From: a virus
Reading direction: 5' to 3' (one strand)
IMG/VR virus record: IMGVR_UViG_3300025276_000235
Span: 1-22,479 of that record
Length of the DNA: 22,479 nt
Both the position numbers and the translations under genes were made by a program. This document shows positions 11,010-17,176 of the stretch, piece after piece; the stretch's first letter is position 1; every line of letters begins with the position of its first letter. The notes beneath the pieces were generated by a model, which worked only from the letters and a program-made list of their open reading frames with translations, was not told the origin of the DNA and searched no databases.

Positions 11010-11212
11010 TTTTCATGTCCTAACCATACAGCAAAGGCTCCGGTCATAGCACCTGTCACAGTGGCTGTGAGAGCAGTGGCCTGTGAGGTCATAAAATCAG
11101 GGGGTAAGCTCATGAACCAGAACAGTACATGTATGTACATGTATGTCATAACCAGCATCATAATACGAGGAAGTATCTTCCAGTGCAAAAGTCTTTCCAT
11201 AGTTACAGTCAT
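11006..11212 (-). CDS. Small two-segment membrane protein, possible holin or antiholin
   Basis: 68 residues with two membrane segments (about 13-35, ILPRIMMLVMTYMYIHVLFWF, and 44-64) and a short charged end GHEK. Two-TM proteins next to an endolysin can be holins or antiholins, but no family signature is certain. The ATG at 11212 has AAAGGA six bases upstream and touches the previous stop. A second Met at residue 5 could act as a dual start, as in lambda S, which is speculative. The first membrane segment is encoded by a 10-base perfect tandem repeat. Confidence 0.7.
   Translation of the reverse strand: MTVTMERLLHWKILPRIMMLVMTYMYIHVLFWFMSLPPDFMTSQATALTATVTGAMTGAFAVWLGHEK
11126..11145. repeat. 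Perfect 10-bp tandem repeat with palindromic core
   Basis: TACATGTATG occurs twice without interruption, and each copy contains the palindrome TACATGTA. It lies inside the 68-residue membrane protein gene, encoding the MTYMYIHV region. Gain or loss of one 10-base unit would shift the reading frame. Confidence 0.85.
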
Positions 11213-12252: not shown

Positions 12253-12633
12253 CTAGTCACAGGGGTAGGCTTTCCAATCTAGTTGGAAGTGAGGCCCATC
12301 AGGGAACTTCTTCCAGTCGCCACCCCAAACAATCTTAATACCAAGCTCCTCTGCTGCTGCCTTCATCGCATCCCCAATAGGGTAAAACTCATCCCATTCC
12401 CACGACACAGGGTAAGGTACAACATCTACTGCATGACCCGTCAGGTGACGAGACTTTAGTGTAGTTGACTTACCTGTCTTCTTAAGTATACGCTGACGTT
12501 CAATGTTACGAACACCCTCCGTTACACTAAAGTCCTTTTCACTAATCTCTAATGCTCTTTTAACAACAGCAACCATGTCAGGGTGTACCCCAGACAAGTT
12601 CTGTCTACTTCGTAGTCCTAGTGTGTATCCCAT
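12253..12633 (-). CDS. M15-family peptidoglycan peptidase (endolysin)
   Basis: Zinc-dependent peptidase of the M15/VanY group, similar in plan to the phage T5 L-alanyl-D-glutamate endolysin, that would cut peptide cross-links of the host wall at lysis. The 126-residue enzyme is a single catalytic domain. Zinc ligands are H63 and D70 in SRHLTGHAVD and H115 in DGPHFQLDW, with D112 at the position of the catalytic acid (three before the histidine, as in T5). There is no signal peptide, so it needs a holin. GAGGG precedes the ATG. It follows the tail fibre gene by eleven bases. Confidence 0.92.
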   Translation of the reverse strand: MGYTLGLRSRQNLSGVHPDMVAVVKRALEISEKDFSVTEGVRNIERQRILKKTGKSTTLKSRHLTGHAVDVVPYPVSWEWDEFYPIGDAMKAAAEELGIKIVWGGDWKKFPDGPHFQLDWKAYPCD

Positions 12634-12644
12634 TGTATTTCCCT

Positions 12645-14237
12645 CTACTTTAGTACTTTGTAAACCGCAGGTCCGCCTTGGCCGCTTTGGGACGCTATTG
12701 TCCCTGTAATTCTCCAGTAATGATCATCCGGTATTATTACCCACGCACGCCTCCTACCCCCACCAAAACTATCACCCTCGTCAACATAACCCGGGCTGAA
12801 CACAAGCGTGATCCACGTGCTGTTGTCGGAAGAAACCTGAAAACTTGCAGTATTTCCTACGCCTGAAAACTCAGCAAAAACTTGTATCGGTACGCCCTCA
12901 GTGTTTCGACCATCCTTAGTGTTTGCCTGCCAAGATTGGCTTACACCAACACCGCCACTGCCACCAGAAGCAGCAGCCCAAGTCAAGCCGCCTGCGTTTG
13001 CGCTTTGGGCTGTAAGGACGTAGCCATTTGTAGGGTTATTGCTGACCTTTAAATTTGCTTCGTCTACAATATTGCCGGCAATAACAGTTGCACCGTCAGC
13101 GGTACTGGTGACTTCACCAGAGTGGTTAGGGTGAGTGTAGTTGTTTGCGCTTGCTGCGATGCCGTTTAGTTTCGTATGGTCTGTATCTGTAAACACGTTT
13201 GAGTCAGATGCGGCTTCAACAGCTGCTCTAATCTCAGCGTTGGTCTGGTCAGCAGTAGCAGTAGTTTCAATATTGCCAAGTTTCGTATGGTCTGCATCTG
13301 TAAACACGTTTGAGTCAGTTGCGGCTTCAACAGCTGCTCTAATCTCAGCGTTGGTCTGGTCAGCAGTAGCAGCAGTTTCAATATTGTTAAGTTTCGTATG
13401 GTCTGCATTGGTAAAACTGTTTTCACTCAGCTCGCCATCTTGGATCGAGTAAACGGTGTCACTGTCCGAATTGCCTGTGCCAGCGCCAATAAGTGTGCGA
13501 ATTTCCCCAGCCGTGATATTCGTGTTCAGGCTAGGAACTGTGCCATTGCTAGTAATAGCCGCAAGCACAGGAGTAGCCGCAGTCGCCCATGCTATGTCGG
13601 TCGCCGTGGCGGTCAATATTTGCCCATTTGTCCCCTTTGATAACCGAGCTGTTCCTGCTGCACTTCCGTACAGGATTGACCCCCGAGTTATGGAATCCAA
13701 CTGGTTAATCTCTGTAGTTGTAACAGTTGCACCTGCAAGTTTGTTAAGCTCTGTAGTTGTAACAGTCGCACCTGCAAGTTTGTTAATCTCTGCAGTTGTA
13801 ACAGTTGCACCTGCAAGTTTGTTAAGCTCTGTAGTTGTAACAGTTGCACCTGCAAGTTTGTTAAGCTCTGCAGTTGTAACAGTTGCACCTGCAAGTTTGT
13901 TAATCTCTGCAGTTGTAACAGTCGCACCTGCAAGTTTGTTAAGCTCTGCACCAGTGGCACTTATGGCTGTGCCAGCAAGAGTTAACCCCTGCGTGGTAAT
14001 GGACAACACATTGTTAGAAGCCTGATCTAGTACAGCTATGGATATCCAAGCATTGTTAGCCTCATTACGTACCTTAAGTATGTTAACGTCAGTTTCATAC
14101 CACCACTGGTTAGCATGAGTAGTAGAGGGCTCTGTACTACCGGAGGAGTTAGAGGCTAAGGCAACAAGGGCATTATTAAGGTCTGTCCTAGTGGCTGGGA
14201 AAAGTTGATTCCCAATGGTAAAATCGTGTTGCGACAT
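12645..14237 (-). CDS. Tail fibre / receptor-binding protein with tandem repeats
   Basis: 530-residue structural protein downstream of the tail tip gene. The N-terminal part (MSQHDFTIGNQLFPA … QWWYETD … NAWISI) is a type I associate with marine phage fibres and probably attaches to the tail. Next come six 13-residue repeats (ELNKLAGATVTT), then two near-identical 37-residue units (DADHTKLNNIET … AEIRAAVEAA … SNVFT) and a partial third, then a glycine/serine linker (GGSGG) and a beta-rich C-terminus likely to contact the receptor. Such repeats suit a trimeric fibre shaft. AAGGA precedes the start, which overlaps the previous stop. Confidence 0.85.
   Translation of the reverse strand: MSQHDFTIGNQLFPATRTDLNNALVALASNSSGSTEPSTTHANQWWYETDVNILKVRNEANNAWISIAVLDQASNNVLSITTQGLTLAGTAISATGAELNKLAGATVTTAEINKLAGATVTTAELNKLAGATVTTTELNKLAGATVTTAEINKLAGATVTTTELNKLAGATVTTTEINQLDSITRGSILYGSAAGTARLSKGTNGQILTATATDIAWATAATPVLAAITSNGTVPSLNTNITAGEIRTLIGAGTGNSDSDTVYSIQDGELSENSFTNADHTKLNNIETAATADQTNAEIRAAVEAATDSNVFTDADHTKLGNIETTATADQTNAEIRAAVEAASDSNVFTDTDHTKLNGIAASANNYTHPNHSGEVTSTADGATVIAGNIVDEANLKVSNNPTNGYVLTAQSANAGGLTWAAASGGSGGVGVSQSWQANTKDGRNTEGVPIQVFAEFSGVGNTASFQVSSDNSTWITLVFSPGYVDEGDSFGGGRRRAWVIIPDDHYWRITGTIASQSGQGGPAVYKVLK
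13181..13402. repeat. Two 111-bp direct repeats in the tail fibre gene
   Basis: Copies at 13181-13291 and 13292-13402 differ at only a few positions and encode the 37-residue unit of the fibre. The shared segment TTTCGTATGGT recurs at the end of a third, partial copy to the left. The high nucleotide identity indicates recent duplication or homogenisation rather than ancient protein repeats. Confidence 0.9.
13710..13943. repeat. Six 39-bp tandem repeats in the tail fibre gene
   Basis: Six contiguous copies of a 39-base unit beginning CTCTG(T/C)AGTTGTAACAG, with a few variable sites (T/C in GTAG/GCAG and GTTGCA/GTCGCA; AAG/AAT at the end). They encode the 13-residue shaft repeat E(L/I)NKLAGATVTT(A/T). 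All are in frame and without spacers. Confidence 0.95.
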
Positions 14238-17176
14238 TACGTCACTTCCTTTCCGTAGCCCTGAGCTACATAGTCTAAGGTTGCAGAGTTTGTACTAACT
14301 GAGTTGCCAGTAAAGGTGTTTATGGTAAACCCAGTTCTAGTCTTGTTTGTCATGGTGTACCTGTCTCCGTTAGCTAAATTGGCTAAAGATATTCCTACAG
14401 CTGGGGCAACCTTGAATGGCGTGGCGTACGTTACGTTTTTAGTTCCAGTAAAGACAACACCACTCTCAGAAGCGACCCTGTCGGGCATGTCCACAACAAC
14501 AGCCAGTTCTTTGACAACAGGACTTGCGTTGACGTTAGTAGAGCCTAACACAACCCTAAACTCAAAGGCCCGTGCAGTTACATCAGCTACACTAAGGGGA
14601 AGCCAGTCAGTCCAAGTAGGTGAAGCGGTAGGGTCCCCTGTTGTGTGTCGCAACTCTAAAGATACAGATGTATCGTCAGACCCCACGGGGCTCTGATAGT
14701 CAAAAAGACCCGACCTACTGTCAAACGTACCTGTAGCAGCATCAAAAGTTTCCTTGTAGTCGAACCTACCAGTAAGAAGGGTGCTGCTAAGTCTGCTGGT
14801 AAAAACAGCCCCAAGGTCTATGCCACTAGAAAAGTAGTACGTCCCAGAACTTACAAACTGCCCACCTGTAAACTGTAGCACAAGGTGGTTGGGGGCGCTG
14901 GCAAGCTCAAAGCTAGAAGACTCTTTTTCCAAGTTGGTGAGTGTGCCAGAGAACGAGGGGCTTTCTTGACGAGTTTCTATTAAGTTTAACTGCTCTAAGC
15001 CTGCGCTGGTAGTTATAAACTGAGCAGCGTTGTTGGAGACATTAGAGCCACTAAACGTATCATCTACAGCTTTAATAAAGTAAGTGCCTGTACCAGCGTC
15101 TTGGAGGACTAAGTTGTTAGTGCCTGCAGAAACTTCAGCTACAAGAACAGAGGAGTCGTAGTCTGAGCCACTGGGTTGTGGAGAATACTTAATAATGTAG
15201 TGTGCCAAATCTAAGTCAGGTACTGGTGTCCAGCTAAGGTATAGAGTTGTGCCTACCACGCTGCCCGAGAAGTTAGTGACATCAGCAGGCGGCAACCCCG
15301 GAAGACTAACTCGGTGTCTTAGTGTATAAACCCAATCACCGGTAACTCCCAGAGTGTTAGTGCTCCTAACTCTGATGTCATAGAGGGTCTCTAGTATAGA
15401 GGGGACCTCAATCCTCTCTGTGCCAACAAAGCTACCCAGAGTCCCTACCGATGTAAAATTCGGGTCAGTAGTAAGAGACTTGTTGATCTGCACCTCTGCA
15501 GAACTTAGGGTACTACTTGTGTTGGTTACATCAAGTAAAAGAACTCCCATGCTTTTACCCAGAATCTTCCTAATCTCTTGGCTTGGGGTTATTGTAAGAG
15601 TAGGTGTCGCAAAAGGGTCCAACAGGGTCGTGTTGTCTCTCTCGTAGACTACGCTGTCGAGAACCTCGTCGTAGACAGACTGTGCAGTTTCTCTCAGAGT
15701 CATGGTAACTTGTAGGTCTTGTTGACCTGTCATTCCAAACGACCAAGTTATTACTTGAAAGTGCTTATTAGTCCAACCAAACCTTGTGTTAGTGAGACTT
15801 ACATTGTCACCAACCTGTAGTCCTAAAGTCCTCAGGCCAAAAGAGGCGTTAATAGTAAGTTGCTGCCTGTTACTCTCTAAGCTGATCCGAGCAATTCGCC
15901 TCGCTTCGATACTGTTATCCGTAAAGGGTAAGTCTACGTCAGCAACAGCCTCCTGACCACCGTCAACGACGAGGAAGGGGTTGGGGTTTGCTACTGTGTT
16001 TTCAGGAACCTGTGGGTAGTCAGTAACTTGCCAATTAGATTCTGCCCCACGAAAGGTGCCCTTTACAGTGTTGTAGTTGTCTCTACGAGAATGACGTGTG
16101 CTTACTTCTATGGGGGACCGAAGGTCATCCTCATTTAAGCTCATCACGGGGTTTGTCCAATAAGCAGGTTTCATACGCCACTTACCCTGAGAGTACCACA
16201 AAGAGCCCCCCATACAAGTTAACAGGTCACTTAACAGGTCGTAGGGTGTCAGTGCAGTAGTAAAAGAGCCATTACAAGTGTACCGAGTAGTGCCATCATC
16301 TGTGTTATTCTGATTACACACAGTGACAGCAGAGTTAACTAAAGTATCGTCTATATTAGCTGGTAGCTCTTTAAGACCATACTCCGATGTTAAGTAATCT
16401 CTTATGCACAGGGCAGGGTTGTCTGACCACGCAGTTGTAGAAGTGGCAGGGTTGTAGACCTTCTTACCCTTAACTTCCGCTGTTATACTAGGTACACCGT
16501 TGGGAAACGCACTCTGATCATACTCAAGACGCACATACATGTAGGCTATGCCAGATAGCTTATGATTAGCTGTCCATTTTGAATCAGACTCTGCTACAAG
16601 TTCAGTATCGGCTGCTTGGTTAGTTGTACCGGTGTGAAAGTTTATCTTTATGAGGGGAACTGTAGATGATGTATAACGCATAAAGCACCCGTTGGTCTCA
16701 CGATCATCTCCGGTTTGCCCTGAGCAATCGTCGCCATTGTAATCTCTCACAACCCCCGTTGTGACTTTCTTAAGAAACTTGTCAGGGCCGGTGACGTTAC
16801 CGTTGCCATCAAGGGTAAGCTCTTCGTCTTCTATGTAGACCTTGTCAAAGGATTCAACCTCATGCCCAGCTACTGCAATAATACGGTGGTATATAATATT
16901 ATTAGTGCCTGTAGACTCGTCATACAGTACAGCCCCACCAACACGCATCTTACCGTAGATTATTGAGTGGTCTAATGCCGACCCCATAGCATTTACTTGA
17001 TAGCCACGGTTAGCCCCTTGAGACTTAGGTCTGGGGGCAAGGGCATTAAGTGCTAGACCCAGACCCACGTTCAAGGCAAAGGCACCAAGACTGAGTCCAA
17101 AGCCTGCGGTAAGGCTAAAGGTTATTACACCGGGCGCAGCAAGTGCGCCGACGACTATAAATAGGGCTGAAGCCAT
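14237..17176 (-). CDS. Tail tip / host specificity protein, lambda J-like
   Basis: Large 979-residue tail protein at the end of the tail-tip block, placed as J is in lambda. The first 48 residues are strongly hydrophobic and glycine-rich (ALFIVVGALAAPGVITF …), as in several phage tip proteins. A conserved tip region follows (YQVNAMGSALDHSIIYGKMRVGGAVLY, CIRDYLTSEYGLKE), then a fibronectin type III-like domain near residues 620-715 (PPADVTNFSG … LYLSWTPVPD … YIIKYSP) and beta-rich C-terminal domains. It would form the central tip and contact the host surface. GGAAGG lies seven bases upstream. It overlaps neighbours at both ends as TAATG. Confidence 0.9.
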   Translation of the reverse strand: MASALFIVVGALAAPGVITFSLTAGFGLSLGAFALNVGLGLALNALAPRPKSQGANRGYQVNAMGSALDHSIIYGKMRVGGAVLYDESTGTNNIIYHRIIAVAGHEVESFDKVYIEDEELTLDGNGNVTGPDKFLKKVTTGVVRDYNGDDCSGQTGDDRETNGCFMRYTSSTVPLIKINFHTGTTNQAADTELVAESDSKWTANHKLSGIAYMYVRLEYDQSAFPNGVPSITAEVKGKKVYNPATSTTAWSDNPALCIRDYLTSEYGLKELPANIDDTLVNSAVTVCNQNNTDDGTTRYTCNGSFTTALTPYDLLSDLLTCMGGSLWYSQGKWRMKPAYWTNPVMSLNEDDLRSPIEVSTRHSRRDNYNTVKGTFRGAESNWQVTDYPQVPENTVANPNPFLVVDGGQEAVADVDLPFTDNSIEARRIARISLESNRQQLTINASFGLRTLGLQVGDNVSLTNTRFGWTNKHFQVITWSFGMTGQQDLQVTMTLRETAQSVYDEVLDSVVYERDNTTLLDPFATPTLTITPSQEIRKILGKSMGVLLLDVTNTSSTLSSAEVQINKSLTTDPNFTSVGTLGSFVGTERIEVPSILETLYDIRVRSTNTLGVTGDWVYTLRHRVSLPGLPPADVTNFSGSVVGTTLYLSWTPVPDLDLAHYIIKYSPQPSGSDYDSSVLVAEVSAGTNNLVLQDAGTGTYFIKAVDDTFSGSNVSNNAAQFITTSAGLEQLNLIETRQESPSFSGTLTNLEKESSSFELASAPNHLVLQFTGGQFVSSGTYYFSSGIDLGAVFTSRLSSTLLTGRFDYKETFDAATGTFDSRSGLFDYQSPVGSDDTSVSLELRHTTGDPTASPTWTDWLPLSVADVTARAFEFRVVLGSTNVNASPVVKELAVVVDMPDRVASESGVVFTGTKNVTYATPFKVAPAVGISLANLANGDRYTMTNKTRTGFTINTFTGNSVSTNSATLDYVAQGYGKEVT

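Follow-up and report, generated by a model that had tools for sequence, protein, structure and literature searches.

In-frame tandem repeats in a predicted marine phage tail fibre: signs of recent duplication, exchange and separate homogenisation of stem units

The window analysed here, the whole 22,479-base stretch of an IMG/VR virus record, carries long ORFs running rightward up to about 10.3 kb and tail genes running leftward, a layout that is the same as in Roseobacter phage CRP-6; at the DNA level, megablast aligned the two over a single 360-base stretch (72% identity), in the CRP-6 DNA polymerase gene. The tail module includes a fibre gene flanked by a lambda J-like gene on one side and an M15 endolysin gene on the other, as is gp38 in CRP-6. 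The fibre protein matches PHROG tail fibre families (phrog_21412, E 1e-32; phrog_24456, E 2.4e-17); it reaches the cut-off of no Pfam family and matches nothing in NCBIfam at E ≤ 0.1. The J-like protein was identified through phrog_5616 (E 8e-76) and phrog_31, 'central tail fiber J' (E 5.5e-59), and the endolysin through PF13539 (E 1.1e-13) and phrog_465 (E 6.1e-60). The three genes, and the parts into which the fibre protein can be divided, are as follows:

12253..12633, minus strand: M15 peptidase (endolysin), downstream neighbour (Pfam and PHROG)
12645..14237, minus strand: tail fibre gene, 530 aa (ORF, PHROG matches and gene position)
12648..12953, minus strand: C-terminal tip, residues 429-530, predicted small beta-sandwich
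12954..13178, minus strand: residues 354-428, the beginning of a third 37-aa unit plus the 'THPNHSGEV...GGLTWAAA' module, as far as the Gly-rich junction
13179..13400, minus strand: two 37-aa (111-bp) units, residues 280-353 (TRF, repeat search)
13473..13700, minus strand: inter-array module 'ITRGSILYG...ATDIAW...', residues 180-255, common to relatives
13701..13934, minus strand: six 13-aa (39-bp) units, residues 102-179 (TRF, repeat search)
13965..14237, minus strand: N-terminal part (residues 1-91), interpreted as the anchor; present in 87 loci, a count that takes in window copies and duplicates
14237..17176, minus strand: J-like central fibre or tail tip gene, upstream neighbour (PHROG matches)

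Some features of this neighbourhood were recorded in their own right. Nine of the relatives listed have an M15 endolysin with 94-96% amino acid identity, although their J segments are 54-88% identical (50-70% in three others), and DNA matches to relatives extend past the endolysin to about 11200; the region (12253-12633 down to about 11200) may represent a lysis module that either moves on its own or is under strong conservation. Residues 911-970 of the J-like protein (first Met uncounted) gave a weak H-type lectin match (PF09458, E 0.0073), under the curated cut-off, and this segment near the C-terminus is a possible second binding domain. A perfect 10-bp tandem repeat, GTACATGTAT x 2.2, is found at 11125-11146 within a small minus-strand ORF. 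On the plus strand, a 189-aa frame antisense to the fibre gene is open at 13456-14025, and since unit lengths in multiples of three tend to leave other frames open, it is probably not a gene.

TRF reported the 39-bp unit in 6.3 copies at 13704-13950 (score 438) and the 111-bp unit in 2.2 copies at 13168-13415 (score 447), each with 94% matches and with spacings that a separate repeat search also recovered, as against a best score of 67 in 200 codon shuffles of the fibre gene. Both periods are multiples of three and both arrays lie inside the 530-aa minus-strand ORF, in agreement with the six 39-bp and two 111-bp near-identical in-frame units of the original prediction, which had described them as nested; they are in fact consecutive, about 290 bp apart. 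Unit identity was 94% (39 bp) and 95.5% (111 bp), while 1,000 synonymous resamplings gave means of 73% and 74% and maxima of 79% and 83%, respectively. Codon pairs that encode the same amino acid within an array differed in 8 out of 172 cases for the 39-bp units and in 0 out of 33 for the 111-bp units, where the resampling expects 65% and 61% on average. Because synonymous codons are so nearly identical, protein constraint alone is insufficient to account for the arrays, and recent duplication or conversion is needed. The two 111-bp units are separated by five base differences in four codons, each amino-acid-changing, which are too few for inferring selection. The six 39-bp units are six distinct haplotypes, and all four combinations occur at 3/3 informative site pairs within this unit in the window and at 7/10 in that of a relative, L002; such a pattern is expected from repeated exchange between units, though recurrent mutation may also produce it.

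The first two lists of relatives comprised the best 80 of 285 and the best 80 of 245, and among the homologous fibres compared the 13-aa unit is present in zero to six copies and the 37-aa unit in zero to two; like the window record, the relatives studied closely are contigs from metagenomes. By alignment, six 13-aa units are found in the window and in L002, two in L004, one each in L003, L005, L019, L085, L089 and L094, and none in L087 (a stricter regular expression counts one unit in L004 and none in L005). L019, which is among the closest loci by J (78% amino acid identity, about 90% DNA identity over much of J), combines its single 13-aa unit with no 37-aa unit at all. There are two 37-aa units in the window and L005 and one in L002, L003 and L004, that is, exactly one copy apart, and the J protein is 71% identical to that of the window in L002 and 46% in L005. 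Copy number, for which a fixed value had been named in advance as the outcome against the original prediction, therefore differs among relatives.

The two long 13-aa arrays allow the history of the units to be followed further. Synonymous differences amount to 8/172 (4.7%) within the window array and 21/144 (14.6%) within that of L002, but to 191/302 (63.2%) between them. When the 12 units are divided in all 924 possible ways, no grouping other than the actual one and its mirror image gives a value as extreme as that observed. Units at the same position in the two arrays are no exception, being 72% alike, with 71% for units at different positions. These comparisons suggest that each array has been homogenised separately, either after independent expansion or as one ancestral array evolving in concert in each lineage, and the data fit both. 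That both long arrays stand at six copies could reflect a constraint on copy number rather than freedom. For the 37-aa unit, at least 27 tandem arrays with at least 65 units were found by motif and summarised by 24 loci (several arrays per locus being merged for L007 and L070); zero synonymous difference is seen in the window's contig alone, and the other 23 loci range from 19% to 69%. These motif-based counts are lower bounds, because the regular expression demands 'ADQT' or close variants and missed the 'ATVDQT' of L005 unit 1 and of L004. In L031, an adjacent pair of 37-aa units is 96% alike by TRF, and recent duplication has thus also occurred outside the window.

Units also appear to have moved between phages. 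The second 37-aa unit of the window is 97% identical to that of L005, with 0/34 synonymous differences, as compared with 6/31 before it and 11/34 after it, and the longest run without synonymous change between the two contigs, 48 codons (residues 304-354), was reached in 0/20,000 permutations. The window's first 37-aa unit is a patchwork of bases typical of L005 units 1 and 2. A second pair, L002 and L003, shares a stem block of 419 bp at 99.5% identity, with two synonymous changes in about 138 codons, in a fibre that is otherwise diverged; no further match lies within 300 bp, and the block stops at the Gly-rich junction, after which the tips are different. The fibre as a special recombination hot spot found no support. 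In an all-against-all comparison (islands of at least 93% identity, between 90 and 900 bp long and no closer than 300 bp to the end of a locus), from which the CRP-6 record was left out together with L001, L002, L019, L161 and L162, which duplicate other loci or the window, fibre-type ORFs contained 25/113 of all near-identical islands and 2/45 of the isolated ones, counted per locus pair and hence non-independent, against 17% of the bases. Islands being not enriched in it, the fibre is one mosaic region among many.

At both ends of the stem the protein is recognisable across loci of very different length. Distinct complete fibres among the loci with the N-terminal part (n = 66) measure 205-691 aa, with a median of 228, and 7/66 reach at least 400 aa. 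A tip profile scan, in which 57 loci were fetched out of 120 stretches with the peptide pattern, located the tip family C-terminally in 57/57 ORFs (six of them cut at the 5' end, near-identical contigs included), ending 7-17 residues from the C-terminus and starting anywhere from residue 35 to residue 661. When the N-terminal part is also recognisable, 22 of 25 ORFs start the tip at residue 90-150, and the window's stem is therefore unusually long for its anchor and tip type; the remaining three tips start at 298 (L223, a partial N-terminal match), at 332 (L175, which is the contig of L003) and at 449 (L174, a window-like contig, in stop-to-stop coordinates). The roseophages CRP-822, CRP-406, CRP-831 and CRP-811 have a related N-terminal part and quite different distal parts. 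In CRP-831 (L172, 2498-4201), the protein with this related N-terminal part carries repeats of the 'NTAxGxxALxxNTTG' type, which resemble YadA-head repeats, so that stems of several kinds may be mounted on this type of anchor. One scan of bacterial genomes with six peptide patterns returned no whole fibre; it gave eight relatives among 32 stretches, the longest spanning 84 residues. Stretches within residues 313-396, around 'THPNHSGEVT', were matched in genomes of five Paenibacillus, one Rhodobacter and one Bacteroidetes bin (L231-L237), and judging from these alignments the region may be a fibre module common beyond marine phages.

Structure prediction of the whole fibre as a monomer was poor (pLDDT 50.9, pTM 0.22), the N-terminal part being the best predicted. 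In this model every 13-aa unit has a short helix in the equivalent position (starting at 96, 109, 122, 135, 148, 161 and 174), and a pair of helices from the first 37-aa unit region appears again 37 residues further on (277/314 and 296/333), which is consistent with one structural element per unit and with nothing beyond that. The tip was modelled as a small beta-sandwich (pLDDT 72.1, pTM 0.67) with five moderate BFVD matches at E ≤ 0.001 (best 3.4e-5, TMq 0.61), all of them predicted viral proteins and some annotated as tail fibres; the search of the PDB gave weak matches and none at E ≤ 0.001. The 37-aa motif is found in the fibre protein gp28 of cyanophage P-SCSP1u (PDB 8i4m, E 1.9e-8), for which the published description states that the N-terminal part is clearly resolved (PMC10575957).

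Taken together, the arrays most probably form a modular, repeat-built stem between a conserved N-terminal anchor and a C-terminal tip, with unequal recombination altering the number of units. A single structural element would correspond to each 13-aa or 37-aa unit. Unequal homologous exchange or slippage between near-identical units would gain or lose whole in-frame units, as the comparison of relatives suggests, and the same exchange would homogenise those that remain, by a molecular route that we infer; short tracts, down to about one 37-aa unit, would also be swapped with other phages, as the two contig pairs indicate. The N-terminal part would anchor the fibre and the predicted tip would bind the host receptor, and whole units being gained and lost in the stem, the latter could serve as a length-adjustable spacer that sets the distance and flexibility of the tip. 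The evolutionary side of this reading (duplication, exchange, homogenisation) is well supported by the sequence comparisons, and the functional side (reach, host range), which draws on analogy with other phages, is plausible. The recent duplication or gene conversion proposed in the original prediction is upheld by the near-zero synonymous divergence, the separate homogenisation, the four combinations and the patchwork unit. Its claim that the change is ongoing does not go beyond inference: the IMG/VR contig 3300009428_000825 is 99.94% identical to the window over 6,543 bp, with four mismatches, none within the fibre gene, and has the same copy numbers, though it may share the window's sample. 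It was the sole match to exact and degenerate DNA patterns of the 39-bp unit in viral contigs, and no copy-number change is seen within a population because this single near-identical contig has the same number. A broader picture, which we consider unlikely as a whole, would have the stem repeats act as a currency in the marine phage community, in which single 37-aa units and stem blocks swap between strongly diverged phages, apart from the tip, conversion spreads a new unit along the array, and neither the length nor the texture of the stem is tied to the evolution of the anchor and the receptor-binding tip.

Among the alternatives, the one with a real, if minority, chance of being correct is that the expansion is neutral, a recombination-driven change in size with no effect on infection because any foldable stem is tolerated; it opposes the spacer function and leaves the recombination history as it is. 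The same anchor and tip do exist almost stemless, as in the 22 of 25 ORFs mentioned above, and the fibre of CRP-6 is 231 aa long. Against neutrality, in-frame fibre duplications of Enterococcus phage EfV12-phi1 rose in 4/4 coevolving replicates and never in phage controls, as reported (PMC6365445), so that fibre changes of this kind can be selected, albeit in another phage and by an unknown mechanism. It is improbable that the arrays are an assembly artefact, short-read assembly having fixed or collapsed the copy number or having formed chimeras across repeats that several phages have in common. The window record and its closely compared relatives are all metagenome contigs, and chimeras are conceivable since 37-aa units recur in marine phages; yet all six 39-bp units differ from one another, the second contig carries the same array with its four SNPs elsewhere, and L002 and L003 come from different IMG sample numbers and differ at two synonymous sites inside their shared block.

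We consider it quite improbable that the window's repeats are old and stable, kept alike only through protein selection with 13 and 37 residues as structural periods. A period of exactly 37 is indeed common (36/55 spacings between successive motif matches within ORFs of the loci examined), and the window and L002 both have six 13-aa units, but such selection would leave synonymous sites diverged, as they are between phages and not within the window arrays. This explanation is thus contradicted for the window and may hold for many of the 37-aa arrays of other phages (19-69%, 23 loci). Finally, a role of the repeats as DNA or RNA (a recombination signal or a regulatory RNA), with the protein secondary, is extremely improbable and is unsupported by folding, Rfam or cross-phage DNA divergence: the nucleotide identity within arrays is high, but RNA folding z-scores are -0.92 and -1.53, no Rfam family reaches its gathering score within 12600-14300, the same protein units have unconserved DNA between phages (191/302 synonymous differences), and all 139/139 TRF rows with a period of at least 30, which come from 157 of the loci L001-L160, have a period divisible by three (the rows overlap, and some of their loci are near-duplicates).

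With the modular stem as the preferred reading, the window can be placed among systems already described. In phage T4 the duplications are reportedly located in the receptor-binding part, whereas in the window it is the stem that is duplicated. What both have in common is small duplications in a fibre gene, those of the T4 adhesin domain being reported to expand host range (Tetart et al. 1996). In EfV12-phi1, in-frame tandem copies in variable number occur in a putative tail fibre gene, upstream of the predicted binding domain, but its unit is of 1.8 kb and arose in the laboratory, whereas those of the window are of 39 and 111 bp, natural, homogenised and common to several phages; the authors state that how the duplications altered infectivity is not known (PMC6365445). 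In the antireceptors of Streptococcus thermophilus phages, repeats likewise separate receptor-binding protein domains, although they are collagen-like and unrelated in sequence to those of the window (PMC5601072).

Parallels are also found in marine phages, whose 13-aa and 37-aa fibre repeats the window matches in motif and period. The 13-aa 'LDGVTATTAELN' repeats are also present in KBS-P-1A, P-RSP2, CRP-9, CRP-603 and Octadecabacter DB virus 2, but with more diverged DNA where measured (adjacent units 54-79%, three phages), and the 37-aa 'HTKLxxIExxATADQT' repeats in NATL2A-133 and P-SCSP1u gp28. CRP-6 gp38 (MK613348) occupies the same gene position, shares the N-terminal part at 53% and, by iterated profile, has a tip of the same family, and differs in being 231 aa long and without a repeat stem. 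A 2025 paper on CRP-822-type roseophages gives a length of about 19 nm for the tail fibres of CRP-822 and suggests rapid tail gene evolution, and the word 'repeat' is absent from its text; in the literature searched, no paper named these repeats in its title or at the start of its abstract, the motif itself not having been a search term. In-frame fibre duplication as a phage adaptation is already published, and in principle such a stem is nothing new. The window contributes an example from nature, in a marine phage, of two unit types in concerted evolution and of exchange at the scale of the unit. In this example the stem differs by 13 or 37 residues at a time and bears footprints of recombination while anchor and tip are alike, and cultured roseophages could on this basis be used to test what fibre length does for adsorption.
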